From NCBI GenBank assembly GCA_934565775.1, contig CAKTIN010000019.1, positions 1 to 25,960 of the forward strand: 25,960 nucleotides of DNA, written 5' to 3'. Positions within the stretch are counted from its first letter, which is position 1, and every line of letters begins with the position of its first letter. The translations under genes were made by a program, and so were the position numbers. Shown here piece by piece: positions 1-18,298 of this stretch. The notes under the pieces are model-generated. The model was not told where the DNA came from. It worked only from the letters and a program-made list of their open reading frames with translations, and made no database searches. The DNA is from an uncultured Oscillospiraceae bacterium (GTDB taxonomy: Bacteria; Bacillota; Clostridia; Oscillospirales; Oscillospiraceae).

Positions 1-1445
1 GCATAATGTACGCTGTATCCTCTGCGGCTCCCGTTCAAGAGCTGCGAGACAAAGTCCCCGGACTCGTAAGGCAGGGCGCTTTCGTCATAGGTCAGCAGCG
101 CCTCTATCTGCGCCAGCAGGGACTGCCGGATTTGGGTCGTAGACTGCCCCCGGCAGGACAGGTCAAAGACCTGCTCCAGAAGGGCAAGGGTCTCCTCGGG
201 CACCTGCAAATTCTCCGCATACACCCGCTCCCGATAGGCGTTTTCTCCGTTCAAATAAGGGCAGTCCCCTATTTGCGACAGGGCCTGCTGCACCAGATAG
301 GCCTGGCTTGCGGGGTACAGAACACCCTGCCAGGTTCCGTTTTCCGGATTTTGGGTTCCCTCCCCGGCAAGGCGGCGGGGGTCCAGGGTGAGATTCTCCC
401 CGCCGTAGGGCGTATAGGCCCAGGCGCCGCAGGCGCCCAACCGCTGCACCGTTATGATCTGCCCGGCGTTTCCCAGCGCCCCGTTGGCAGTGGCCAGCTG
501 ATTGGCGGGGAAGAAATAATCCTTTTGCAGGCGGTAGGTCAGTCCGGCCTCCTCCCGGCTCCGGTCCTGCCCGGCCGGCTCCCAGGCGGAGCCGGTATAG
601 GTCTCCCCCGTGAAGCCCTTCAGATACAAGCTGGTCCAATGGGTCATGGTGACCCGAAGCGCTCCCTCGCCGGTGGGCGAAAAGCTGCCAAGATGCTCCA
701 GATTTCCCTCCGGGAGGGGATTCTTTGCCGGTTCATACTGCGCTCTGTGCAGGGAGCCGAGAATCCGGTCCCGGGACTGTACCACAGGGCCCTGCGGCAG
801 AAGCTCATAAGCGCCCAGAGCCAGTCCGGCCAAGGCCGCAGTCAGCCCAAGCCCCCAGAGGACGCGCCGCCAGGCGGGCCCCTCGTTCCAAACCAGCAAG
901 AGCAGCGTCCCGCACAGCAAGGCCGCAGCGGGCCATCCGGGCGTCAGCCGGACCGCAACGGCCGCAAGCCCGGCGGCGGTCAGAAGCCCATACAGCCAGG
1001 CCCAGCTCCCTCGGGCGGAGGCGCCAAGGGCCGCCCCCACAAGGATTCCCAAAAGGACCTCAAACTGCCAGGTCCGTTCCCCACCGGCAAAGGAAAAGTG
1101 AAGATACCCATGCCACCGGGTAAGAGCGGCAGCGCCGGCGGAGAGCGCCCCACGGAGCCCCTGCCCCAGGGGCTGGCGCATCAGCAGCCCTCCGGCCAGC
1201 AGCGCCAGAAAGCCGCCCGCCAGAAGCAGCCGTCCCCGCTTCGACCAGGGCAGCGCCAGAGCGATTGCTGCGGCGGCTCCCCCGGCTGCCAAAGGCCAGA
1301 GGCCCAGGTCCAGGAATTCCCGCCACGCGCCCCACAGGCCCAGCAGCGCCAGGCCCACCGGGAGAGCCAGCAGCAGTCTGGACCGTCCTCTCGGTTCCGT
1401 TCTATTCCCTTGCTGCGCCCGAAGGCCCGGGGAATTTCGTTTCAA
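1..1445 (-). CDS. Polytopic transglutaminase-like protein (partial, 3' end outside window)
   Basis: An open frame of about 481 codons runs from a TTG start to the window edge without a stop. Roughly the first 215 residues are mostly hydrophobic and can be read as about seven membrane segments. An extracytoplasmic region of about 250 residues follows. The window ends just inside what looks like a transglutaminase core, at SRRGYSVHYA, which lines up with the RRGFCEHFA-type active-site motif. At the Cys position this protein has Ser (AGC codon). The TTG at 1445 is preferred because GGAG lies 9 nt upstream; a TTG at 1454, overlapping the DUF58 stop, is the alternative. MoxR, DUF58 and membrane transglutaminase genes are a common trio in bacteria, thought to act in assembly or processing of envelope proteins. 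The exact role here is unknown. Confidence 0.85.
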   Translation of the reverse strand, partial: MKRNSPGLRAQQGNRTEPRGRSRLLLALPVGLALLGLWGAWREFLDLGLWPLAAGGAAAAIALALPWSKRGRLLLAGGFLALLAGGLLMRQPLGQGLRGALSAGAAALTRWHGYLHFSFAGGERTWQFEVLLGILVGAALGASARGSWAWLYGLLTAAGLAAVAVRLTPGWPAAALLCGTLLLLVWNEGPAWRRVLWGLGLTAALAGLALGAYELLPQGPVVQSRDRILGSLHRAQYEPAKNPLPEGNLEHLGSFSPTGEGALRVTMTHWTSLYLKGFTGETYTGSAWEPAGQDRSREEAGLTYRLQKDYFFPANQLATANGALGNAGQIITVQRLGACGAWAYTPYGGENLTLDPRRLAGEGTQNPENGTWQGVLYPASQAYLVQQALSQIGDCPYLNGENAYRERVYAENLQVPEETLALLEQVFDLSCRGQSTTQIRQSLLAQIEALLTYDESALPYESGDFVSQLLNGSRRGYSVHY

Positions 1446-1450
1446 AATGC

Positions 1451-2545
1451 TCAACTCCAACTAAAATTTTCCAGAGCGGACGCAAGCCCCTCCGGTGGAA
1501 AGGCCGCGATTTGCGGCTGCTCCAGAGGCGTGCTCAGGCACAGCAGCGCCTTTCCGCCCCGATTTGCGGCAAACTCCTCCCAGGATTCCGGCAAGCGGCA
1601 GCTGAAATACAGCAGCCGACTGCCCCGGCCGGACAGCTGGGCCAAGGCGTCCGTCTCTCCGGGGTGCGCCTTCAAAAGGGAGGCCACTGCCTCCGGCAGC
1701 TGCTCCGGGGTACGCACATCCATATGCCCCAGCCGCTCTCCTGCGGTCCAGACCAGGCGGAAAGGCAGCCCCGTCTCGCACAGGGCCTGGCAGACGGAGC
1801 AAACCGCCTCGCCGATGGCGTCCGCCTGGGCGGGGGATGCGGAATCCCAGCTCCGGTCAAACAGCACGGTCAGCTGCCGGTCCACCGGCAGCGCCGGGTC
1901 CCGCACCACCATCTGCCCCAGCTTGGAGCTCAGTTTCCAGTGGATCAGACTGAGACTGTCTCCGGTGGTATAGGGCCGGAGCTGATAGGTCTCGGTACGG
2001 TCCTGTCCGCGCCGGTCCTGGGCATATTCCTGGCTGTCCGCCAGGTCGGAGGGGGCGTTCTCCGGCATACCGGGCACGGAATAAATCTCCGGCATCACCA
2101 CGGCGCGCTTTTTCGCCGCAGCGTGTACCGACAGGGAGAAAATCCCAAAAAGGTCCCAGACCCGCGCCCGTTCCAGCCGGAAGGTCAGGCAGCCACAGTA
2201 GGGGCTCTCCACCGTCCAGCACAGCCGCTCCGCTCCCCGTCCCCGAAGGGTCAGGCGCTCATCCGTCAGGGCGTTCTGCACGGACACCTCCGCAGCGATC
2301 CGGCCCCGGGGAAGCACTCCGCCCCCCTCTGCCCGAAGGCAGACGGAAAACGGTTCCCCCTTTCCGGCGGTCGCCGGGCAGTCCAGGGTCCATTGCAGCC
2401 TTTTTCTGGCCAGAAGCAAACCGGCCAGCGACCCCGCAGGCAGCAGGAGCAGCGCAAAGAAGCACACCTCCGCCGCAGCCGAGGCGGTCAGCAGCCAAGC
2501 GCCCAGGGAGAGCAAAAGAAGAAGCCCATACACAACAAGATTCAT
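1451..2545 (-). CDS. DUF58 domain protein
   Basis: This 364-residue protein has two N-terminal membrane segments (about residues 2-20 and 28-46), then a soluble region. The DUF58 signature is seen as LRPYTTGD (189-196) and IHWKLSSK (201-208), followed by a von Willebrand A-like portion with VLFDRS. Its ATG overlaps the stop codon of the MoxR gene by 4 bp (ATGA), and its own stop lies against the start of the transglutaminase-like gene, so the three are translationally coupled. DUF58 proteins are usual partners of MoxR ATPases and are believed to work as an adaptor with a metal-ion-dependent adhesion-like fold. No enzymatic activity can be assigned. Confidence 0.93.
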   Translation of the reverse strand: MNLVVYGLLLLLSLGAWLLTASAAAEVCFFALLLLPAGSLAGLLLARKRLQWTLDCPATAGKGEPFSVCLRAEGGGVLPRGRIAAEVSVQNALTDERLTLRGRGAERLCWTVESPYCGCLTFRLERARVWDLFGIFSLSVHAAAKKRAVVMPEIYSVPGMPENAPSDLADSQEYAQDRRGQDRTETYQLRPYTTGDSLSLIHWKLSSKLGQMVVRDPALPVDRQLTVLFDRSWDSASPAQADAIGEAVCSVCQALCETGLPFRLVWTAGERLGHMDVRTPEQLPEAVASLLKAHPGETDALAQLSGRGSRLLYFSCRLPESWEEFAANRGGKALLCLSTPLEQPQIAAFPPEGLASALENFSWS

Positions 2546-3480
2546 GCTTTTTTCCCGGGCAGGCCGGGCACCGGGACCGCCGCCAGAATTTCCGCCAGCG
2601 CTGTCTCCTGGTCATACTCATGGAGCCGCGCCTTGGACGACAGGAGCAGCCGGTGCGCAAACACGTCGTTCACGCAGCGGCGCACATCCTCCGGGACCAC
2701 ATAGTCCCGGCCTTGGACAAAAGCGCCGGCCTTTGCCGCCCGGCACAGCGCCAGCGCGCCCCGGGGGCTGACGCCCAGCTGCACCATGGGGTGGTTCCGG
2801 GTCGCCTCCGCCAGAGCGGCTATGTAATCATAGATCGCATCCGCCACGTGCGTCCCCGCCGCCTGGGCCTTGGCCCGGCAGAGGGCCTCCCGGTCCAGGA
2901 CCTGACTGACCGCATCCAAAGGATTGCCGTCATGCCGGTCCTTCAAAATACTGATCTGGCTCTCCCGGTCCGGATAGCCCATGTGCAGCTTCATCAGGAA
3001 CCGGTCCAGCTGAGAATTGGGCAGATTCTGCGTTCCGGCGGAGCCCGCCGGATTCTGCGTCGCCAGGACCACAAAGGGGTCCGGCAGCGGATGGGTCTTG
3101 CCGTCTACGGTGACGCGCCCCTCCTCCATGGCCTCCAGCAGCGCGGACTGGGTCTTGCTGCTGGTGCGGTTGATCTCGTCGGCCAGGAGAAGGTTGGTCA
3201 TAATGGCCCCGGGCTGATACACCAGCCGGTCCTGGCGAAATACGGAAAAGCCAATAATATCCGAGGGCATGGTATCCGGCGTAAACTGCACGCGCTTTTC
3301 CTCCAGGCCCAGGGCCTTGGCAAAGGACAGGGCCATGGTGGTCTTTCCCACGCCGGGCACATCCTCCAGCAGCACGTGGCCGCCCGCCAGAATGGCGATC
3401 CAGATTTTCTCAATGACCTCGTCCTTGCCGATGATCACCTTTTTGACCTGGGCGATCACCTGCTGCGTCATTTCATTCAT
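2542..3480 (-). CDS. MoxR family AAA+ ATPase
   Basis: This is a 312-residue MoxR-type AAA+ ATPase with Walker A GVGKTT (43-48), Walker B LLLADE (97-102) and the sensor stretch ATQNP (140-144). The rest of the protein looks complete for the family. I chose the ATG at 3480: it follows a purine-rich GGAAAGGAAAG ribosome binding region and gives the usual N-terminus, whereas an upstream ATG at 3507 adds nine unlikely residues. The start overlaps the end of the preceding toroid protein gene by 8 bp. MoxR ATPases act as chaperone-like remodelers with DUF58/VWA partners, and the next gene is exactly that partner. Its position inside a B12-riboswitch operon is unusual and suggests it serves the surface proteins encoded upstream. 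Confidence 0.95.
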   Translation of the reverse strand: MNEMTQQVIAQVKKVIIGKDEVIEKIWIAILAGGHVLLEDVPGVGKTTMALSFAKALGLEEKRVQFTPDTMPSDIIGFSVFRQDRLVYQPGAIMTNLLLADEINRTSSKTQSALLEAMEEGRVTVDGKTHPLPDPFVVLATQNPAGSAGTQNLPNSQLDRFLMKLHMGYPDRESQISILKDRHDGNPLDAVSQVLDREALCRAKAQAAGTHVADAIYDYIAALAEATRNHPMVQLGVSPRGALALCRAAKAGAFVQGRDYVVPEDVRRCVNDVFAHRLLLSSKARLHEYDQETALAEILAAVPVPGLPGKKA

Positions 3481-4825
3481 GCTTTTTCTTTCCTTTCCAA
3501 ATTGCAAAGCCTGCCGCCGCGGCGATCAGCACTCCGCCGCCCACGATTTGGGGCCAGACCGGCGCATCCGCGTCATAGGTGATCGTTCCGTCCCCCGGCA
3601 GGGTCACATTGTAGCTTTCCGCAGGATCCTCCCCCTCCAGGCTCACACCCAGCGCGGCAAAGCGCGCCGCAGCGAAGGATACATAGCTCCGCTCCGCTGC
3701 CGGAAGGGCCAGATAGCGCCGGTACAGCGCCGGAGCCTCCGACGCACCGGCCCCTGCCAGGGCCTCATTCAGGGCGGCGATCTCCGCCTGCACTGCCGGG
3801 TCCATAGGCTCCCGGAGGTCATACAGCCGCCGCCCGCCGCTTGCCAGCCGCTCCATGGCAAGCAGAGCCATGCCCGCCTGCTCCGTGGTGAACAGGTCGC
3901 CAGTCTGCTCCTGCATGGTGTGGGCGAAGGAGCCGTCCGGCAGGCGGTAACGCAGCAGGCCGTCCCTTGCGCTGCCGCCGTCCTTGACAAAGCGCGGGTC
4001 CGCCGCCGGGTCCAAGCCCAGACTGCACAGGGCCAAAACGACCTGGGCGGTGCTGTCACAGTTTGCGTCTCCCCAGCTCTCGAAATCGCCCGATGCCGTC
4101 TGGGCCCGGGAGAGATAGGTCAGCGCCCGCTCCGCAGCCTGGGCAACCGTCTGCTGCGTTCCTGCGGCATCGGTAAAGGAAGCCGTCGCGTTGCTATAAG
4201 GCGCCAGCGCAAGCAGCGCCATTGCGGTAATATCCACATCCGCGCTTCCCCGCACCAGGCCGAAGCCCCCGTCCGCCTCCTGACAGGCCAGCAGGGCGGA
4301 GAGCATCGCCGCCCGGTCAAAGCGGCTCCCCGCCGGGACCGCATAGAGCTTGGCGTCCAGGGTGATCAGGCTGAAGATCCAGCCGTTCGCCCCCTGAGTC
4401 CCGGGGTTTTCCGTAGCCGACCAGGCATAAGTCCCGTCGGCAATCAAGTCGATCAGCGTCCCGTCCTGCCGCCTGCCGAAGCAGGTGGGGTCCGCCCCCA
4501 GGGACAGGACGGTCAGGCTGATGCGGTGCCAGTCTGTGGCCTTGCTCTGGCTCAGTCCCCCCTGGTCCCGGTATAGCCGGGTGACGTAGGCCCAAAGGCC
4601 CTGTAAATAGGATTCCTTCTCCGTCTCCTCGCCGGTCCGTCCGGCAAAAAATGCCGCCCAGTCGGAGACGGAGCTGCCGGGCTGAAGGTCCTTGCTCTGC
4701 AAAAGATGCGCCGCGTCGGTGCCGGCCAGGCCCGCAGCCGCCGAAAGGGCGTCTGCACTCCCGGCGGCCGGTACGGCCAAGGTCAAAAACAGGCACAGCG
4801 CCAGAAACAGGCTGAGCTTTCTCAC
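3473..4825 (-). CDS. Secreted, membrane-anchored alpha/alpha-toroid (prenyltransferase/squalene oxidase repeat) protein, candidate corrinoid binder
   Basis: The protein is 450 residues from a GTG start. That start is chosen because AAGGAGGAC lies just upstream, it overlaps the preceding stop as GTGA, and it opens directly into a signal peptide (KLSLFLALCLFLTLAVPAAG). The body holds repeats of the terpene cyclase/prenyltransferase toroid type: DGGFGL with DVDITAMALLALAPY, DFESWGDANCDSTAQVVLAL, and DGSFAH with TTEQAGMALLAM. A C-terminal membrane helix (IVGGGVLIAAAAGFAIW) followed by lysines anchors it to the cell. The same fold and the D-x-x-AM-x-LAL pattern form the alpha domain of intrinsic factor and transcobalamin. 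With the DUF4430 partner upstream and a cobalamin riboswitch in front, extracellular corrinoid capture is a reasonable inference. An unrelated ligand or peptide-binding role remains possible. Confidence 0.88.
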   Translation of the reverse strand: MRKLSLFLALCLFLTLAVPAAGSADALSAAAGLAGTDAAHLLQSKDLQPGSSVSDWAAFFAGRTGEETEKESYLQGLWAYVTRLYRDQGGLSQSKATDWHRISLTVLSLGADPTCFGRRQDGTLIDLIADGTYAWSATENPGTQGANGWIFSLITLDAKLYAVPAGSRFDRAAMLSALLACQEADGGFGLVRGSADVDITAMALLALAPYSNATASFTDAAGTQQTVAQAAERALTYLSRAQTASGDFESWGDANCDSTAQVVLALCSLGLDPAADPRFVKDGGSARDGLLRYRLPDGSFAHTMQEQTGDLFTTEQAGMALLAMERLASGGRRLYDLREPMDPAVQAEIAALNEALAGAGASEAPALYRRYLALPAAERSYVSFAAARFAALGVSLEGEDPAESYNVTLPGDGTITYDADAPVWPQIVGGGVLIAAAAGFAIWKGKKKHE

Positions 4826-6852
4826 GGGTTGTCCTCCTTTTTCCGGGGGATCGGCTCGGTTTTTTCCCCGCCGCACCGGGTGCAGCGATACTTGATCCAG
4901 CCGTCCGCCTCCTCGGTGGGCTCCTGTCTGCCGGTCTCCACATAGGTATGCCCCAGCGCCGGCAGCTCCTTCCGCTCCAGCTCGGAGCCGCATACCGTGC
5001 AGCTCACGGTCTCCAGCCCCGGATTCTCGCAGTCCGGCTCCCGGACCCGGACCGCAGGGCCGGGGGTGTGCCCGTTGGCGCACCGGGAGAGCACCTCGGT
5101 CTTTTCCTCTCCGCAGCGGGTACAGCGATAGCGCACCCAGCCGTCCGCATCTGCGATCGGCTCCTGCCGGGCCGTCTCGACGAAGTCGTGACCCAGAGGC
5201 TCCAGAGTCTGAATCTCACTGTGGTCCCCGCAGACCGCGCATACCCGGGCCACCTCGCCTGGCTCGGTGCAGGTCGGCTCCTTCAGGGTCTGGGCCTGCC
5301 CCCACTGGTGCTGATCGATGTAGGTGCCGTTGATCCATTTGCCGCAATAGGTCGGCAGGAGGCCGTAGCTGCCTCCGGTGGCGCTGTAGCCGCCGATGTC
5401 TTTGCCGTAAGCCAGGGTGAAGCGGAGATAGATGGTATCCCCGTCGTTCAGATAATAGCGCGACAGGCTCTTGCCTGCATACAGCACGCCGTTCACCGAA
5501 TACATCCACCCGGAGCCCTGGGTATAGTCAAACTCCCCCAGGCTGTCATAGCTTCGGGCGCCGGTAAGGTTCAGCCCGTCCGCCAGGACCTTCTGCCACA
5601 GATTCTCGGGGATCTGGGCATAGTCCGCCATGCCGGGGCGGGAGATCCGGCGAATGTAGAAATCGTGGTCCAGGGTTCCGCCGTACTGCACTTCAAAGTC
5701 AAAATACTTGAGCATGGCCAGCACCGCGTAGGAGGCGGGCTCGTCCTGCTTGATCTCATAGGTAAAGGTCTCATCCGCCAGGTCCCAGGGGGCCAGCCCG
5801 ACGGTGGTCGCGTCCAGGACCACATAGGCCTTGCCCACCACGCCGCCGCTGTCTACCAGGGAATAAATTACGGTGTACTCCACATAGGTGGAGTTCCCCG
5901 CCTGGTCCCAGGCCAGGACCGAAATTTTGTGGCTCTCCTCGTCTCCGCGCACCGGGTCCGGGAAATACAGCTCGTATTCGTAGGTGGGGCCGCCGGTGGG
6001 ATTGGAGATCACCTTTCCGTCCATCCGCACCTGGATATTGCTGGCGAAAATTGTCTTGTCCTCCCAGGTTTTTGCAGTGACCTGGAAGGTGAAATTCCGG
6101 TTTGTGATCTTCTCCGTCCAGCCGTCCAGATTGGTTCGGATGGTAGGCGGGTGTTCCCCCACCTCCGGGGTCCCGGCATCCGCCTTCTTCGCCGTGTAGA
6201 AGATGGTATAGGTGACCTCATAAACCGTTTCCGCTCCGCGCTTGACATACAGGGTGATCACGTTCCGCTCCTGCCGGGCAAGCTTCGCCGTATAGTCCCG
6301 GCCGTCTGGGGTTAAATAGGTGCCGTTGCCGGAGGTCAAGCTGTTGCGGAGCTTCACGCGGAGGTATTCGTCCGCTTCGCCGTTTACGATGTACGCGTAA
6401 AATGGGAGAATGTCCTGGGTCAGCTGGTCATAGGTCATGACGCCGCCCGTCAGATCGGTAACGATCTTCAGCTTCGAATCATCCTCCGGGCCGGTGGGGT
6501 CCGTCTCGGCGCCCGGCCCCGTGGTGGGCTCCGTGCCGGGGACCGGCTCCGGCTGCTCCGGGGTCGTAGCCTCCGGCGTTGTGGGCGACTGGGGCTCCTG
6601 CTGCGGCTCAGACGGAGGCTGAGTAGGCAGCTCCGTCTCCTCCGGCTCGGTCTGCTGAGGCTCCGTCTCCTCCGCCGGGTCCTGCCCCTTTGCCCCCGCA
6701 CCCTCGGTGCGAATGGCGGCAGGGCCCGTGGGGATCTCCGCCTCCGGCTCCTGCCGGGCAAAGCCGGAGCCCAGGAAGCAGGCGCTCAGCAGCGCCAGGA
6801 CCAGCACCAAAGCCAAAGCGCTGTAGATCCATTTCGTTCGGCGGTTTCCCAT
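4822..6852 (-). CDS. Lipoprotein with Ig-like regions, DUF4430 (transcobalamin C-terminal-like) domain and Cys-rich repeats
   Basis: This 676-residue protein starts at the ATG after AAAGGAGTGGACC; longer starts would run into the riboswitch leader. A basic N-terminus and hydrophobic helix end in a lipobox LLSAC with the lipidated Cys at 25. Residues about 34-126 are a Pro/Glu/Thr-rich linker. Two beta-rich, Ig-like regions follow (about 128-221 and 235-335). A DUF4430 domain (about 339-490) carries SGWMYSVNG and the typical ending LNDGDTIYLRFTLAYGKDIG. The C-terminus (528-664) contains a duplicated unit of about 80 residues with CxxCG knuckles. DUF4430 corresponds to the C-terminal domain of animal transcobalamins. 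This is the first gene behind the cobalamin riboswitch and is coupled to the toroid protein, which suggests a cell-surface corrinoid-binding lipoprotein. Binding itself is not shown by the sequence. Confidence 0.92.
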   Translation of the reverse strand: MGNRRTKWIYSALALVLVLALLSACFLGSGFARQEPEAEIPTGPAAIRTEGAGAKGQDPAEETEPQQTEPEETELPTQPPSEPQQEPQSPTTPEATTPEQPEPVPGTEPTTGPGAETDPTGPEDDSKLKIVTDLTGGVMTYDQLTQDILPFYAYIVNGEADEYLRVKLRNSLTSGNGTYLTPDGRDYTAKLARQERNVITLYVKRGAETVYEVTYTIFYTAKKADAGTPEVGEHPPTIRTNLDGWTEKITNRNFTFQVTAKTWEDKTIFASNIQVRMDGKVISNPTGGPTYEYELYFPDPVRGDEESHKISVLAWDQAGNSTYVEYTVIYSLVDSGGVVGKAYVVLDATTVGLAPWDLADETFTYEIKQDEPASYAVLAMLKYFDFEVQYGGTLDHDFYIRRISRPGMADYAQIPENLWQKVLADGLNLTGARSYDSLGEFDYTQGSGWMYSVNGVLYAGKSLSRYYLNDGDTIYLRFTLAYGKDIGGYSATGGSYGLLPTYCGKWINGTYIDQHQWGQAQTLKEPTCTEPGEVARVCAVCGDHSEIQTLEPLGHDFVETARQEPIADADGWVRYRCTRCGEEKTEVLSRCANGHTPGPAVRVREPDCENPGLETVSCTVCGSELERKELPALGHTYVETGRQEPTEEADGWIKYRCTRCGGEKTEPIPRKKEDNP

Positions 6853-6874
6853 GGTCCACTCCTTTCCGAACATA

Positions 6875-6907
6875 CAAAAGCCGCGGCAGTCCCAAGACCG
6901 CCGCGGC
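6875..6907 (-). terminator. Intrinsic terminator of the cobalamin riboswitch expression platform
   Basis: On the minus strand a 12-bp stem (GCCGCGGCGGTC paired with GACTGCCGCGGC, one G-U pair) encloses a TTGG loop and is followed by CTTTTGT. It lies between the riboswitch aptamer and the ribosome binding site of the DUF4430 lipoprotein gene. It is therefore the likely OFF structure formed when cobalamin is bound. Confidence 0.85.
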
Positions 6908-6959
6908 CGATTTCTCGCGACAAGCAAGCTGCCCGCCTCTACGCGCAAGGCGGCAGCAT

Positions 6960-7136
6960 GAAAGGCAAAGCAGGTCTTCTGACTTACGCATCGTCAGCTC
7001 CGCGCGCCTTCTCGGATTGCTCCAATGGCCGGCTTTCGCCCTGCGCGAAGCCTCCGCGTTTACAGCGGCGGCACCGTCCGGGATTTGCACCCGATTCTCT
7101 ATTCTCCCGCAAATAGCGGGCACTTCGCCTATACTC
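6960..7136 (-). promoter_or_regulatory. Cobalamin (B12) riboswitch
   Basis: Read on the minus strand, the leader contains the conserved aptamer core: GGGTGCAAATCCC, then GCCGCTGTAAACGCGG, and the B12 box AAGTCAGAAGACCTGC (6970-6985). These sit in the expected order and spacing between a sigma-A promoter and an intrinsic terminator. Binding of adenosyl- or methylcobalamin would favour termination and shut down the downstream operon when B12 is plentiful. That identifies the downstream lipoprotein/toroid pair as part of the B12 regulon. The boundaries are approximate. Confidence 0.95.
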
Positions 7137-7142
7137 GTCCTT

Positions 7143-7171
7143 ATTATATCCACATAAGGGCACAAAGTCAA
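7143..7171 (-). promoter_or_regulatory. Sigma-A promoter of the B12-riboswitch operon
   Basis: A TTGACT -35 (7166-7171) and a perfect TATAAT -10 (7143-7148) are separated by 17 bp. The -35 hexamer contains the TGA stop codon of the upstream Nudix gene. Initiation about 7 nt downstream places the start just before the riboswitch aptamer. Confidence 0.88.
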
Positions 7172-7572: not shown

Positions 7573-8460
7573 TTAGGCCTCCAATTTCTCGATTTCCCGG
7601 CAAAACGCCTCATAGAATTGACCGATATGATAGCCGTCCACCAGCCGGTGGTTCACCTCAAGGGACACGGTCAGGACCTTTCTGCCGTTCTGCTCTAAGT
7701 ATTTTCCCCAGGCCACCCGAGGAAACGCATCGTCCCGGTCTCCGCTGTTCTCATTGGTCAGCGCAGTAAAGGGCACCCAGGGCAGGCAGGAAATGTACAG
7801 CGCATCGTCCCGCTCCTCCGCACCAAAGAGGGTGCTCTGGCTCTCGCTCCGCGCCTTTGCGGCGGCGCAGAAGGACTCCAGCGCCGGCTCCATCTCCATG
7901 GTGACGATCTTCAGCGCGTCGCTGCCCCTTTTCAGATCAATAAAGCTGGGCACACGCCGGTCCAGGAGCACCGGCTCCCCCCGGTCGAAGCTGGTCCGCA
8001 GCGCCGGGACCGTATTCGCCGCCCGGGTGCAGAGCCAGGTCATCGCATAGTAAAAGGAAAGGCCCCTTGCCTTAGCATACCGGTACACCGGCGTCACGTC
8101 CAGGGGGAAGGCCACGCTGTACCGCGGGTTTGCCGAGTGAGAAAACAGAGCGTACTGCTCCCGCCGGGACCATGTCTCCAGATCGATGGAGCGCCGCCCC
8201 AGGCGAAGGACAAACCGGGGGTTCTCCCGGGCCGCATCCTTCAGACACCGCAGCAGCCGGTCCCCCCCCTTCCCCAGCGCTTCCTTCAGAGCATCCAGGT
8301 GATACAGCTCCAGGGTCCTATCCGCCGGTTCGCTCAGGCAGTCGTAAAGGCTGTCCAGATTGCCGCCGTACCACGCAGGCAGCTCCAGGTCCCGGACCAG
8401 AATCCGATGGACCTGCTCCAGATCCCGGACGGTTTTCCCGTCAATGGCACATTTCTTCAT
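7573..8460 (-). CDS. Barstar-like immunity domain fused to a type A chloramphenicol acetyltransferase-like domain
   Basis: This single uninterrupted 295-residue frame contains two recognisable domains. Residues 1 to about 90 resemble barstar: LPAWYGGNLDSLYDCL (27-42) aligns with barstar LPEYYGENLDALWDCL, keeping the key Asp (D40, equivalent to barstar D39). Residues from about 93 are a CAT-like domain: IDLETWSRREQ, NPRYSVAFPLDVT, LSFYYAM, and the catalytic segment NHRLVDGYH with H271 and D275 in the HxxxD spacing of CAT. The start overlaps the barnase-like gene by 4 bp (ATGA). The barstar part should neutralise that RNase in the cytoplasm. The acetyltransferase substrate is unknown; the second histidine of the classical HH pair is Asn, and chloramphenicol resistance should not be assumed. 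Such a fusion is unusual in my knowledge. Confidence 0.92.
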   Translation of the reverse strand: MKKCAIDGKTVRDLEQVHRILVRDLELPAWYGGNLDSLYDCLSEPADRTLELYHLDALKEALGKGGDRLLRCLKDAARENPRFVLRLGRRSIDLETWSRREQYALFSHSANPRYSVAFPLDVTPVYRYAKARGLSFYYAMTWLCTRAANTVPALRTSFDRGEPVLLDRRVPSFIDLKRGSDALKIVTMEMEPALESFCAAAKARSESQSTLFGAEERDDALYISCLPWVPFTALTNENSGDRDDAFPRVAWGKYLEQNGRKVLTVSLEVNHRLVDGYHIGQFYEAFCREIEKLEA

Positions 8461-12154: not shown

Positions 12155-13267
12155 TCAATAGGTCAGCTTATAGGTGTTGGCGTCGCTCAGGAAGTTGCTC
12201 ATCTCATAAAGGATCAACGCGTCCGTAATACCATACTCCTGAATCAGGCCCTTTACGGAGCCGCCGAAGTACCGCAGGTCCACCATGATGATCTGCTCAT
12301 AATCCTCCAGCAGGAAGGGCACCAGGCTGTTGGCAAAGGAGTCCTTCACCACAAGCAGCCGCTTGCCATTCCCCGCGCCGGTATCGATCACCGTCTGCCC
12401 CGGGTTGCCCCCAAAGAATACGGCGTACTTGTCCTTGGTCTCCAGCTTCTCCAGGTCGTAAACAGAGGCGCTCTGTACCCCGTCCTCCGTTACGGTCACC
12501 TCCGGCAGATTCTGGGGCACCTCGATGGCGTCCGGCAGGGCGCTGCCATCCAGGGTCTTGGAATAGAGGGTCCCGTAGAAGGAGTCAGTGAGCTGCTGCA
12601 CCCGGAAGCTCTCATAGGACCGCGCCTCCAGCCCGGCAGCCTCGCAGTAGCTCCGGTAGCCCAGGTAGGCCCCATAGGTCGTCCAATGGTGATCCGTGCG
12701 GTAATACACCTGCCGGGTCTGCCCGGAGAGCGCCTGGCGCAGATCGATCACCTGGCACTGGGGCAGCGCCGCCTCCACCGCCGCAAAAACCCGGTCCATG
12801 TCATACAGCACGGCGTGCTCCGGCAGCAGGTCGGGCAGGATCTTCCCCGGCGTCGGGGCAAAGAGCACCCGCACCGGAATCTCCTGCTCCCGGGCAAACT
12901 GTGCAAGCAGGTCCAGCTGCGCCTGGAAGCGGTCGGCAGAATAGCTGTCATCCGTAAATTTTTCAAAGAAATAGTGTTCCTTGCCCAAATAGACCCCGCC
13001 GATGTCCTTGCGGCCGGAGAGCTTTTTGGTCAGGGCCCCCGTCGCCGTCCAGAAATCCCGCTGGGGAAACTGGTCGCTGAGGAAATCCGAGAGCTTGTCC
13101 TGGAACTTGCCGTCCAGAACGGACTGAGCCGTCAGCTCCGGGCGGCCGGTCAGATAGCGGTTTTCGTTTTCGGAAAAGGCCCGGTCCGGCGTGGCAAACA
13201 TCCAGACCGCGCAGCCCGCCAGGGCCAGGAAAAACAGGAGGGCAAAGCCAATTCTCAGTTTTTTCAT
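12155..13267 (-). CDS. DHHW family protein (AlgJ/AlgX-like, SGNH-type) for polysaccharide O-acetylation
   Basis: This 370-residue protein has an N-terminal signal or anchor helix (about residues 5-25). It carries the name-giving motif TDHHWT at 191-196 and a likely nucleophile region KDSFANSLVPFL with S310. GAGGAGG lies upstream of the ATG. DHHW proteins resemble the alginate O-acetylation factors AlgJ/AlgX and are encoded next to MBOAT acyltransferases. The MBOAT protein brings the acetyl group across the membrane and the extracytoplasmic SGNH-like partner is expected to pass it to a cell wall or capsule polymer. The gene is 11 bp downstream of the MBOAT gene and ends the operon at a strong terminator. 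The polymer acceptor is unknown. Confidence 0.9.
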   Translation of the reverse strand: MKKLRIGFALLFFLALAGCAVWMFATPDRAFSENENRYLTGRPELTAQSVLDGKFQDKLSDFLSDQFPQRDFWTATGALTKKLSGRKDIGGVYLGKEHYFFEKFTDDSYSADRFQAQLDLLAQFAREQEIPVRVLFAPTPGKILPDLLPEHAVLYDMDRVFAAVEAALPQCQVIDLRQALSGQTRQVYYRTDHHWTTYGAYLGYRSYCEAAGLEARSYESFRVQQLTDSFYGTLYSKTLDGSALPDAIEVPQNLPEVTVTEDGVQSASVYDLEKLETKDKYAVFFGGNPGQTVIDTGAGNGKRLLVVKDSFANSLVPFLLEDYEQIIMVDLRYFGGSVKGLIQEYGITDALILYEMSNFLSDANTYKLTY

Positions 13268-13278
13268 CTCTTGCCTCC

Positions 13279-14685
13279 TCAGAACCGGAAATACAGGAAG
13301 GGATTATAGGAATCCCCCACCAGGAACGCAATGCAGAAGAACAGCACCACCAGGCACAGCACGTCCGCCCCGATCTCCCGGACCACAGGCGGCAGCTTCT
13401 GCCCCAGCCATTCGGCCGCCCGCTTGGGCAGCCGGGTGCTGCCGATGGCCAGGATCACGAGCAGAGGCCCATAGGTCAGCCAGTCGTAAGCCGCCAGGCC
13501 CGCAGAGAACGGCACGCCGATTCCAAACATAGCGCTATACCATCTCCCCGCCAGGGACAGGTCCTCGCAGGCGAAAACCACCCAGCCGAGCAGGATGAAG
13601 AAGATCGCATAGAGGTGCTGGAAAAAGGCGGGAAGCTTCTTCAGGGCCTTCAGAAGGGCAAATTTCTCCACCATCAGCACTACAAAGAAATATAGCCCCC
13701 ACAGCACAAAGCACCAGTCCGCCCCGTGCCACAGGCCGGTCAGCAGCCAGACGATAAAAAGATTCAGCACCTGCCTGCCCTTGCCCCGGCGGTTTCCGCC
13801 CAGAGGAATATACACATACTCCCTAAACCAGGTGGACAGAGTGATGTGCCACCGCCGCCAGAACTCCGTAATGCTCCGGGACTGGTAGGGATAGTCAAAG
13901 TTCTCCGTAAAGGTGAAGCCCAGCATATGCCCCAGGCCGATGGCCATGTCCGAATAGCTGGAAAAATCAAAGTAGATCTGGAAGGCATAGGCCAGGGCGC
14001 CCAGCCAGGCCAAGCTGACGCTGAGCTGGCCCGTGGCGGAGATCTCATCCCACAGCGCGCCGATCTGATTGGCCAGCAGGACCTTCTTCCCCAGGCCCAG
14101 AATGAACCGGCGAATGCCCATGCTCATGCTCTGCCAGCTCTCCCCCCGGACCTTCAGCTGGTTTTCCACATCGCTGTAGCGCACAATGGGCCCGGCGATC
14201 AGCTGGGGGAACAGGCTGATATACATGGCAAAATCCACCCAGCTGTGCTGGGCCTTTACATCCCCCCGGTAGACGTCAATGGTATACGACAGGGACTGGA
14301 AGGTGTAAAAGGAGATACCGATGGGCAGCGCCAGGCGCAGGGTGCTGAGCCCCAGGCCCGTCAGGGAATTCAGATTCGTAATGAGAAAGTCTGTGTACTT
14401 GAAAAAGCCCAAAGTCCCCAGGCTCACCACCAGAGAGGCGATGAGCACCGCCTTCCGGGCCTTGGGCTTCCGCTTCTGCTCAAAGCGCTCCATCAGCAGT
14501 CCGCAGCCCCAGGCAAACAGGGTGCAGAAGATCATAATCAGCACATATTTCGGCTCGCCCCAGGCATAAAACGCCAGGCTCACCACAAGCAGCAGGAAAT
14601 TCCGCAGCCGCTTTGGGCACAGATAGTACAGGCCGATCACCAGAGGCAGGTAGATGCAGAGAAACAGGATACTGCTAAAAACCAT
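13279..14685 (-). CDS. MBOAT family O-acyltransferase (AlgI-like)
   Basis: This 468-residue protein has many membrane helices. The AlgI/DltB-type signature is present: SITEFWRRWHITLSTWFREY at 271-290, YIPLGGNR, and the catalytic His in LLTGLWHGADW (H320). PIGISFYTFQSLSYTIDVYRG (residues 121-141) is typical of AlgI homologues. The ATG is preceded by AAGGATG. The protein should move acetyl groups from cytoplasmic donors to the outer face of the membrane for transfer to a glycan by the DHHW proteins. It lies between two genes for DHHW-type proteins, an arrangement that fits a single O-acetylation machine. A hairpin 5' to it may adjust its expression. Confidence 0.96.
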   Translation of the reverse strand: MVFSSILFLCIYLPLVIGLYYLCPKRLRNFLLLVVSLAFYAWGEPKYVLIMIFCTLFAWGCGLLMERFEQKRKPKARKAVLIASLVVSLGTLGFFKYTDFLITNLNSLTGLGLSTLRLALPIGISFYTFQSLSYTIDVYRGDVKAQHSWVDFAMYISLFPQLIAGPIVRYSDVENQLKVRGESWQSMSMGIRRFILGLGKKVLLANQIGALWDEISATGQLSVSLAWLGALAYAFQIYFDFSSYSDMAIGLGHMLGFTFTENFDYPYQSRSITEFWRRWHITLSTWFREYVYIPLGGNRRGKGRQVLNLFIVWLLTGLWHGADWCFVLWGLYFFVVLMVEKFALLKALKKLPAFFQHLYAIFFILLGWVVFACEDLSLAGRWYSAMFGIGVPFSAGLAAYDWLTYGPLLVILAIGSTRLPKRAAEWLGQKLPPVVREIGADVLCLVVLFFCIAFLVGDSYNPFLYFRF

Positions 14686-14721
14686 GGTCGTAACATCCTT
14701 CGGTACTTATTTTTCCGCAGT

Positions 14722-14761
14722 CCGGAAAAGCCGACAAGTCCCGGACGGGGCCTGCCGGCTT
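14722..14761 (-). terminator. Intra-operon hairpin, possible weak terminator or processing site
   Basis: On the minus strand, AAGCCGGCAGG pairs with CTTGTCGGCTT (11 bp, two G-U pairs) and is followed by TTTTCC. It lies in the 87-bp gap between the DHHW lipoprotein gene and the MBOAT gene. It could partly terminate or stabilise the upstream message. Confidence 0.5.
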
Positions 14762-14772
14762 GTTCGTATGAA

Positions 14773-15951
14773 TTATTCCGCAATCTGGGCCAAAGAGCCA
14801 ATGAGGTAATTGCTGCGGATCATGGACAGATTATTTGCAAAAATAACATCCTTGACCCCGTGCTCCTTAACAAAGTCGATAACGTTGCCGTCCCAGTAGC
14901 GGTAGTCCAGCTCATAAATGGTGCCGTAATGCTCCACCAGGAACGGCAGCAGGGCGTTGCCGAAGGACTCCTTGATATAGACGCAGGAGGAGCCGTCCGT
15001 AATGGAGGGATTGGTCAGCACGGAATAGGGGTTATCCCCGGCGCAGAAGGTGTTATACTTGGACGATGAGGCCCAATTGGACACATCCATAATAATGTCC
15101 CAGGCGTAGGTGTCGCCCTTGTTATCCGTGAATTCCATGGTTGCGTCCTCGCACAGGGGCTCGTACGCAATGACGGTATCCGCCTCCAGGGCATCGTCCT
15201 CCCCGGAGTTGTTCCAGTAGAAGGAGCCCAGGAAGTTGTCGAATTCCACCGTCTTATGCTGCTCCGGCGTAACGGGGGCAATCCCCTTCACGTCGCAGAA
15301 GGTCTCATAGGAATAGTAAGCGCCTAGGGCGGTCCAATGGTGGTCCGTCCGGAAATACAGATATTCGTTGCGGTGACGCATCAGATTCTCATAGCTGTTA
15401 ACGACCTTCACATTGCTGTCCAGCAGGGCCACGATCTTCTGCATGGCCTCCCCCTGGTCGGAATAGCTGTTCAGCTTCTCACGAATATCGTCCGGCAAGG
15501 TAATGCCGTAGCTGGTGGGGATAGGGATGCAATAGACGCTGGCCGTCCCGGCCAGGCTGTCGGCCACCTTGTTCACCACGGTGGCGTAATTCTGGGCGGC
15601 GTCGCTGCTGAAGCTGTAGGGCTCATAAGCGGCATTGTCCACCCGGAACACTCCGTCGTCATAGGTGGTGACCTCGCCGGATTTGCTGGTCAGGGCGGGA
15701 TAGCCCTGGGCATTCAGCGGCAGCTCCGCGCCGCCGGTGGTCTCGGAGGGGGTCGTATCCCCTGTGGGATCGGTGTTCTCCGTCCCGGAGGGGTCGGTGC
15801 TCTCCGTTACGAAGATCACCGGAGGAAAGGTCTCCTGCTGGGTGGAATCCGTCGCCGCCTGGGTGGGGTTGGGGTTCTTGGCGCCGCACCCGGTCAGGAG
15901 CAGCATCGCTGCCAGGACCAGGGCGGTGCAACGATACTTGGCAGCCGTCAT
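14773..15951 (-). CDS. DHHW family lipoprotein
   Basis: This 392-residue lipoprotein has lipobox LLTGC (Cys22), a Thr/Ser/Pro-rich linker to about residue 75, and then a DHHW domain with TDHHWT at 202-207. A segment at 327-337 (KESFGNALLPF, with S329) matches the equivalent KDSFANSLVPF of the other DHHW protein in this cluster. GGGAGG lies 6 nt upstream of the ATG. The gene is 12 bp downstream of the DUF4358 lipoprotein gene and upstream of the MBOAT gene. It is probably a surface-tethered acetyl-transfer or esterase component acting on an exported polysaccharide. The two DHHW proteins share motifs but differ clearly in length and anchoring, so they may act at different steps. Confidence 0.9.
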   Translation of the reverse strand: MTAAKYRCTALVLAAMLLLTGCGAKNPNPTQAATDSTQQETFPPVIFVTESTDPSGTENTDPTGDTTPSETTGGAELPLNAQGYPALTSKSGEVTTYDDGVFRVDNAAYEPYSFSSDAAQNYATVVNKVADSLAGTASVYCIPIPTSYGITLPDDIREKLNSYSDQGEAMQKIVALLDSNVKVVNSYENLMRHRNEYLYFRTDHHWTALGAYYSYETFCDVKGIAPVTPEQHKTVEFDNFLGSFYWNNSGEDDALEADTVIAYEPLCEDATMEFTDNKGDTYAWDIIMDVSNWASSSKYNTFCAGDNPYSVLTNPSITDGSSCVYIKESFGNALLPFLVEHYGTIYELDYRYWDGNVIDFVKEHGVKDVIFANNLSMIRSNYLIGSLAQIAE

Positions 15952-17956: not shown

Positions 17957-17959
17957 GCA

Positions 17960-18298
17960 GCAATCGGGTCTATAAGCCGGGTTCTGTAATCGACAGCCAT
18001 CTATCTAGACCCGCAGTTGCCTGCGGGTTCCAGCCACCTATCCGGGGACAGCCGGGCCAGCCTTGTCCCCTATGCGGTGTTGCTCCGGATAGAGTTTACA
18101 GCGCCGCGATGTTCCCATGCGGCGGGTGCGCTCTTACCGCACCTTTTCACCCTTACCTCAAAGAGGCGGTATCTCTCTGTTGCACTTTTCCTGGGGTCAC
18201 CCCCGGCGGGCGTTACCCGTTATCCTCGCCCTATGGAGCCCGGACTTTCCTCACAGGGCAGCTTTCGCCGCTCCCGCGCGGCTGTCCGACCCGGTTGC
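17960..18298 (-). ncRNA. rnpB: RNase P RNA, bacterial class A
   Basis: On the minus strand the catalytic RNA core is clear. GAGGAAAGTCCGGGCTCC and the GGCGAGGATAACGGG region lie in the 5' half. GGTAAGGGTGAAAAGGTGCG, GTAAGAGCGCACC and GTAAACTCTATCCGGAGCAA lie in the middle. ACAGAACCCGGCTTATAGACCC lies near the 3' end in two parts. The P1 helix is visible, pairing GCAACCGGGTC at the 5' end with GACCCGATTGC at the 3' end. The length of about 339 nt and the helix order fit class A. The RNA matures tRNA 5' ends. It has its own promoter and terminator. Confidence 0.97.

Follow-up and report, generated by a model that had tools for sequence, protein, structure and literature searches.

A cobalamin riboswitch-led pair of surface proteins as a candidate corrinoid-capture receptor in an Oscillospiraceae bacterium and its relatives

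Introduction

What does a cobalamin (B12) riboswitch control when the genes directly behind it encode two surface proteins? The question is raised by contig CAKTIN010000019.1 of an uncultured Oscillospiraceae bacterium (assembly GCA_934565775.1), whose whole analysed stretch of 25,960 nucleotides we call the window, and in which such a riboswitch is followed by overlapping genes for a DUF4430 surface protein and an alpha/alpha-toroid protein. A preliminary description of this DNA had read the two as a split, transcobalamin-like pair that would close over a corrinoid. From the comparison with relatives presented here, we favor, with somewhat better than even confidence, the reading that the B12-repressed pair would be a corrinoid-capture receptor feeding a CbrT-type energy-coupling factor (ECF) transporter, with both domains sharing one binding site; that the pair captures corrinoids in one form or another, through a shared site or not, we hold to be highly probable. 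In an open-access library, from which most subscription papers and preprints are absent, no description of a toroid-DUF4430 system was found, judged by titles and abstract beginnings.

Results

The DUF4430 and toroid genes travel together

A genome scan with an alignment of the DUF4430 protein gave 39 related loci, many of them cut by contig ends and many from organisms named from gut or rumen samples. In 34 of the 39, the toroid gene adjoins the DUF4430 gene, on the same strand and no more than 700 bp off. Among the remainder, L032 and L036 carry the toroid gene further downstream, beyond the genes for MoxR, DUF58 and transglutaminase-like proteins, and L029, with no adjacent toroid, stops 217 bp past the DUF4430 gene. 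The order in L004 is riboswitch, short DUF4430, EcfT, EcfAA, EcfS, DUF4430 protein, toroid, MoxR, DUF58 and transglutaminase; in L022, from Clostridium cadaveris, it is riboswitch, surface proteins, DUF4430 protein, toroid, MoxR, DUF58, transglutaminase, short DUF4430 and EcfT, with EcfS just past the locus end.

Downstream of the pair, the MoxR-DUF58-transglutaminase set is tightly kept in 33 of the 39 loci (MoxR in 33, at most 9 kb downstream of the DUF4430 gene, DUF58 in 31, and transglutaminase in 29); our guess is that this set, conserved with the pair, serves receptor assembly or loading. Large proteins in several operons, all B12-linked, also contain matches to PQQ_2/BamB-like propellers (L022:3644-7003, where the match falls under its cut-off, L026:3429-7214, and L032:12907-14874); a beta-propeller is the fold of the Bacteroides B12 binder BtuG.

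B12 riboswitches lie upstream of the pair far more often than expected

A cobalamin riboswitch was found within the locus in 19 of the 39 loci, always upstream and on the operon strand, and four more past a locus edge bring the loci with a same-strand upstream riboswitch to 23. Upstream sequence reaches 2 kb or more in 27 loci, 23 of which have one, in six cases at 168-1422 bp from the DUF4430 frame (all within 1.5 kb). The outcome that the preliminary description had named as damaging to its proposal, homologous pairs mostly lacking B12 regulation, did not occur, with the limit that in the other 17 positive loci the riboswitch is distant (2.7-11.8 kb) and separated from the pair by other genes.

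We also surveyed 299 genomes from the phylum of C. cadaveris (the phylum sample), in which its own genome, G022, is the sole overlap with the 39-locus set. At a threshold of E ≤ 1e-30, the toroid family has 62 matches in 39 of these genomes. A same-strand riboswitch lies within 10 kb upstream of 44 of the 62, against 0.57 expected from riboswitch density, and within 5 kb upstream of 31, against 0.28 expected; 13 matches have one within 10 kb downstream, and no opposite-strand riboswitch lies upstream of any of the 62. Leaving out the four matches of G022 (two positive) gives 42 of 58 with an upstream riboswitch, and by genome the count is 32 of 39 with such a riboswitch no more than 10 kb away; a smaller count, over 17 genomes, gave 24 of 42. 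Chance alone would give far less B12 control near the pair. Clusters of two or more B12 riboswitches occur on the toroid-bearing contigs G136:C2, G170:C14, G073:C1, G319:C29, and G234:C46, which is possibly tandem control.

A CbrT-like S component co-occurs with the toroid

The preliminary description saw no B12 transporter in the window and allowed for one downstream or elsewhere. Relatives encode a candidate, an ECF module: the profile of the S component found beside the pair matches CbrT (6fnp_A) at 1.6e-16, the next match being 4hzu_S at 0.002. CbrT is a demonstrated B12 transporter, ECF-CbrT having been expressed in E. coli cells devoid of a B12 transporter of their own (PMC5997447); that the S component is B12-specific in each genome is presumed. 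A CbrT-type ECF module stands beside the pair in L003, L004, and L033, and 37 of the 39 relatives' genomes have an S-component match. In the phylum sample, a CbrT-like S component occurs in all 39 toroid genomes and in 34 of the 260 others (Fisher p 6e-29, the genomes being related); it lies on the same strand within 10 kb of 41 of the 62 toroids, with no opposite-strand case within 15 kb.

Twenty further riboswitch-led stretches were examined in nine relatives' genomes. Three of them (L044, L053, and L045) run short DUF4430-EcfT-EcfA, and in none of their genomes does the pair locus itself show ECF genes; L044 and L053 (genomes G001 and G008) include EcfS, and L045 (G002) reaches EcfA, where the stretch ends. 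The other 17, judged by eye, carry genes for corrinoid synthesis, for BtuFCD-like or surface proteins, or for unrelated products, or are too short to tell; L059 and L063 among them are the pair's own loci. In L062 (G004), L054 (G008), and L058 (G010), a B12 riboswitch precedes a binding protein, permease, and ATPase that look BtuFCD-type by eye, with a weak ATPase match.

Fusions of the two domains on one chain

Two domains encoded separately in one genome and fused in another are often interaction partners. Directly behind a B12 riboswitch in a Christensenellaceae metagenome-assembled genome (L060), one gene encodes DUF4430, cohesin, toroid, and dockerin on a single chain; its DUF4430 domain scores 16.7 bits in Pfam, under the cut-off of 23.8, and E 5e-08 against the family profile among the genes of the riboswitch-led stretches. 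A homologue search with the L060 toroid returned 3269 proteins, 120 of them listed, with lengths filtered to 0.55-1.75 times the query. Both domains lie on one chain in 98 of these 120 by our own profiles and in 78 by the precomputed PF14478 label, DUF4430 standing before the best toroid match in 81 of the 98 fusions and after it in 17. Many of the listed fusions read toroid-DUF4430-toroid, and many have two or more toroid matches per DUF4430. S-layer-homology proteins of Paenibacillus, Cohnella, and Aneurinibacillus are among the fused members by name, and PF00395 (S-layer homology) is present in many of the fused homologues listed. Together with the adjacency of the two genes, the occurrence of both on one chain in many longer homologues supports the view that the DUF4430 and toroid domains belong together. 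"Split" holds only in a relative sense, fused forms being found in the same phylum.

Cohesin and/or dockerin modules are present in proteins at L060:341-2929, L026:3429-7214, and L016:1508-6340, hinting at a cellulosome-style docking of B12-capture proteins; L016 is a locus where no riboswitch was found.

Folds of the two proteins

The toroid protein has an N-terminal signal peptide, the toroid, and a C-terminal membrane helix (residues 425-444) with a basic tail, which agrees with the export signal and C-terminal anchor described earlier. AlphaFold2 (AF2) predicts an alpha/alpha toroid for it with confidence (pLDDT 92.7). Against PF00432 the window protein scores 24.8 bits, just under the cut-off of 26.5, and 99 of the 118 aligned family members match that model at E ≤ 0.001. 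Against PF01122, the eukaryotic cobalamin-binding family, it scores 11.5 bits, below the cut-off of 25; five of the 118 toroids match at E ≤ 0.001, and of nine toroids scanned singly P0031 alone passes (26.9 bits), with P0042 (24.6) and P0028 (24.1) as near misses and the other six well short. A single-sequence PDB search gave no match below E 0.03, and the PDB profile search returned squalene-hopene cyclases and drimenyl diphosphate synthases, with transcobalamin not found. In Foldseek, transcobalamin comes 43rd (E 7.8e-03) and 47th (E 8.6e-03), both times with probability 1.00 and a TM score of about 0.4, behind terpene cyclases, prenyltransferases, and others; its absence from the 50 VIA-align rows for the toroid is uninformative either way, and the listing of transcobalamin-2 by the subfamily profile A7 at E 1.7 is not significant. 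Asp198 is conserved in 117 of the 118 toroids and falls in the segment aligned by PF01122; in transcobalamin, Asp176 contacts the corrinoid. Further conserved residues of the toroid are D55, W56, R101, Q144, N147, Q261, and H302. Two other identities for the toroid were set aside, a terpene cyclase because the class II motif DxDD is present in none of the 118 family members and a thioester domain because the motif CGEQ is likewise present in none.

The DUF4430 protein consists of an N-terminal signal or anchor, a Pro/Glu-rich spacer, two Ig-like domains, the DUF4430 domain, and C-terminal Cys-rich repeats. PF14478 matches residues 440-479 at 25.0 bits (cut-off 23.8), a partial match (33-71 of 72), and our reading of the AF2 model puts this third domain at about residues 338-491, close to the 339-490 proposed before. 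The protein had also been called a lipoprotein: the lipobox LSAC is present in the window member and in one of the 87 homologues checked, so that the term suits this protein and should stay out of the definition of the family. A single-sequence PDB search found no match below E 0.03; in PDB profile searches the best match of the long DUF4430 protein was intimin at 0.028, and the short DUF4430 protein had no match below 1. VIA-align gave mainly Ig-like matches over model residues 8-212, and Foldseek gave cadherin- and Ig-type rows, for which no ranges are given.

Layout of the window locus

The features of the window locus are collected in Table 1. The riboswitch that the preliminary description had seen ahead of the pair is a full-length covariance-model match above the gathering score, and the 4-bp overlap of the two genes is real, reading GTGA because the toroid gene begins with GTG. 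Promoter-like sites average 0.1 in shuffles of the region. The terminator-like stem sits between the aptamer and the first start codon, and the same helix is recovered in the fold of the leader, which 12 of 200 shuffled leaders match or exceed in folding; because the scan averages 0.7 such hairpins in shuffles, position is the main argument for it. The predicted promoter-like site, aptamer, and terminator-like hairpin, in that order, have the layout of a transcriptional OFF switch, and a review describes cobalamin riboswitches as OFF switches for transport or biosynthesis (PMC11477304).

Table 1. Features of the pair locus in the window (positions in the 25,960-nucleotide stretch)
Feature	Position	Strand	Remarks
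Promoter-like site TTGACT-17-TATAAT	7143..7171	-	11/12 consensus bases; abuts the aptamer on its upstream side
Cobalamin riboswitch aptamer (RF00174)	6952..7142	-	98.6 bits, gathering score 31.5; model positions 1-189
Intrinsic-terminator-like hairpin (putative expression platform)	6879..6908	-	13 pairs, 10 of them G-C; T-rich tail
DUF4430 surface protein, 676 aa	4822..6852	-	First gene behind the riboswitch; PF14478
Alpha/alpha-toroid protein, 450 aa	3473..4825	-	GTG start overlaps the preceding stop (GTGA)
MoxR-type AAA+ ATPase	2542..3480	-	AAA_3 7.4e-54
DUF58-like protein	1451..2545	-	PF01882 16.9 bits, under cut-off 23.4; 3e-16 to C. cadaveris operon gene
Transglutaminase-like protein, cut by the window edge	3..1460	-	1.9e-22 to C. 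cadaveris gene

The part of the transglutaminase-like protein that lies within the window has no Pfam domain of its own; its C. cadaveris counterpart carries PF01841. No ECF component (CbrT-type S, EcfT, or EcfA) occurs among the window's open reading frames (ORFs) of at least 60 codons, as had been stated before, and the Pfam scan of 17 window ORFs, with no dedicated BtuCD-type search made, showed no ABC transporter. Elsewhere in the window, all on the minus strand, are a single ORF that joins an N-terminal barstar (residues 1-80) to a chloramphenicol-acetyltransferase-like domain (91-283) at 7573-8460, a DHHW-MBOAT-DHHW gene set resembling an alginate-type O-acetylation cassette at 12155-15951, and a class A bacterial RNase P RNA (278.6 bits) at 17957-18297.

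Discussion

How might such a locus work? With ample intracellular cobalamin, the riboswitch would favor the terminator and keep the operon off, and when B12 is short the operon would be transcribed. The DUF4430 and toroid proteins would then be exported, held at the cell surface, and jointly capture corrinoids. The main binding bowl would be formed by the toroid, through its conserved polar residues, and completed by the DUF4430 domain as the other half of the site, as happens in transcobalamin. The captured corrinoid would pass to an ECF transporter with a CbrT-like S component, which relatives encode either in the pair operon or behind another B12 riboswitch, and the MoxR, DUF58, and transglutaminase-like proteins would probably aid in the assembly or loading of the receptor.

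Several of our observations weigh against this reading as a whole or against one of its steps. Of the 27 loci with enough upstream sequence, L016, L023, L027, and L031 have no riboswitch that we could find, and a permissive Rfam rescan of L016, L027, and L031 found none. Of the 23 upstream riboswitches, 17 are 2.7-11.8 kb away with genes intervening, where co-transcription is an assumption, and in seven of the 39 toroid genomes of the phylum sample no toroid has a riboswitch at 10 kb or less. The genomes of that sample are related, so that p-values overstate independence. ECF genes are present in just seven of the 39 loci. Instead of the toroid gene, MoxR directly follows the DUF4430 gene in L023 and L036 and transglutaminase does so in L037, the contigs of L023 and L037 ending within 3 kb of that point. 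The two domains are never combined in one gene in the 39 loci, and PF14478 is present in none of the 120 listed homologues of the window's own toroid; the length filter and the fused query of the L060 search favor long multi-domain proteins, and the high share of fusions there says less about a shared site than it might seem. Support from PF01122 for the toroid family is marginal, and the best solved matches of the toroid by both sequence and fold are terpene cyclases. On the side of its partner, the VIA-align rows cover the Ig-like part and thus hardly bear on how its DUF4430 domain compares with the beta domain of transcobalamin.

Corrinoids may instead be captured without a transcobalamin-like arrangement, only one protein, toroid or DUF4430, binding the ligand and its partner acting as a scaffold or docking to the ECF S component. 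In several relatives a short stand-alone DUF4430 gene stands directly before the ECF genes, which suggests that DUF4430 can act without the toroid near the transporter, and the surplus of toroid matches over DUF4430 in many listed fusions fits such an arrangement as well. Against it, the toroid and the long DUF4430 protein are encoded next to each other in 34 of the 39 loci and fusions exist, a pairing as expected of interacting halves; we regard capture without a shared site as a real but rather unlikely possibility. A function in uptake could also be mistaken altogether, if the riboswitch were to repress adhesion or wall-remodelling proteins and the MoxR-DUF58-transglutaminase set were a cross-linking machinery, derepressed when B12 is scarce. 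Neighboring proteins with Big_2, Big_3, dockerin, cell-wall-binding, and List_Bact repeats would suit such a role, as would the cohesin and dockerin of the L060 protein and the PF00395 domains of many fused homologues. However, surface-anchoring modules are equally expected of a capture system, and linkage to and co-occurrence with the CbrT-like S component point to uptake, which makes an adhesion role improbable. Finally, the terpene cyclase/prenyltransferase superfamily supplies the best Pfam, PDB-profile, and fold matches of the toroid, as would be the case for an enzyme of that type; the absence of DxDD and CGEQ from all 118 members, together with a signal peptide and a membrane anchor that put the toroid outside the cell, leaves us with very little belief in an enzymatic role.

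If a receptor shared by both domains is indeed what these loci encode, an ECF transporter would gain an extracellular capture receptor. Vitamin ECF transporters are described with the membrane S component as the substrate binder (PMC5997447). With a conserved pair of surface proteins linked to a CbrT-like S component, bacteria of Gram-positive type would have a further layer of capture. Many of the 39 relatives carry names that point to gut or rumen samples, habitats where corrinoids are contested. Bacterial relatives of intrinsic factor and transcobalamin would also become directly testable.

How close is the pair to known systems? Animal transcobalamin, intrinsic factor, and haptocorrin consist of the same two domain types, a PF01122 toroid and a C-terminal DUF4430-type domain, and in work on vertebrate binders DUF4430 is given as the C-terminal domain of TCN proteins (PMC4350170). 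On the side of likeness stand also the toroid relative P0031, which passes PF01122, and the bacterial fusions of both domains. In contrast to the single soluble chain of the animal carriers, the window pair forms two anchored chains with additional Ig-like and Cys-rich parts, its sequence similarity to them is marginal, and DUF4430 precedes the best toroid in 81 of the 98 listed bacterial fusions. Measured against the transcobalamin family, the window pair has the toroid fold and the DUF4430 domain, while its toroid falls short of PF01122 and the two domains are not on a single chain. The transcobalamin-like domain pair of the preliminary description stands as far as DUF4430 and an alpha/alpha toroid are concerned, with a toroid closer to terpene cyclases in the comparisons run. 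There are good grounds for the plausible view that the pair works like a transcobalamin; to call the window protein itself a transcobalamin would go too far. A bolder proposal, which we put forward tentatively and consider possible rather than probable, is a Bacillota counterpart of transcobalamin in which toroid and DUF4430, on one or two chains, would close around a corrinoid on the cell surface and hand it to ECF-CbrT, the animal carriers descending from it or sharing an ancestor with it.

On the transport side, ECF-CbrT of Lactobacillus delbrueckii (PDB 6fnp) is paralleled in the relatives by EcfT, EcfAA, and a CbrT-matching S component. The L. delbrueckii CbrT gene sits in an nrdJ-cbrS-cbrT-pduO cluster, and the abstract and passages of that account mention no surface capture protein (PMC5997447).

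In other bacteria, corrinoids are imported by BtuFCD and by the outer-membrane BtuB/BtuG, where a binder outside the inner membrane feeds the transporter. BtuF has a single periplasmic-binding-protein fold and BtuG is a beta-propeller, neither of them a toroid with DUF4430. The proposed system would have the capture-then-transport arrangement in common with these, with binders of different fold.

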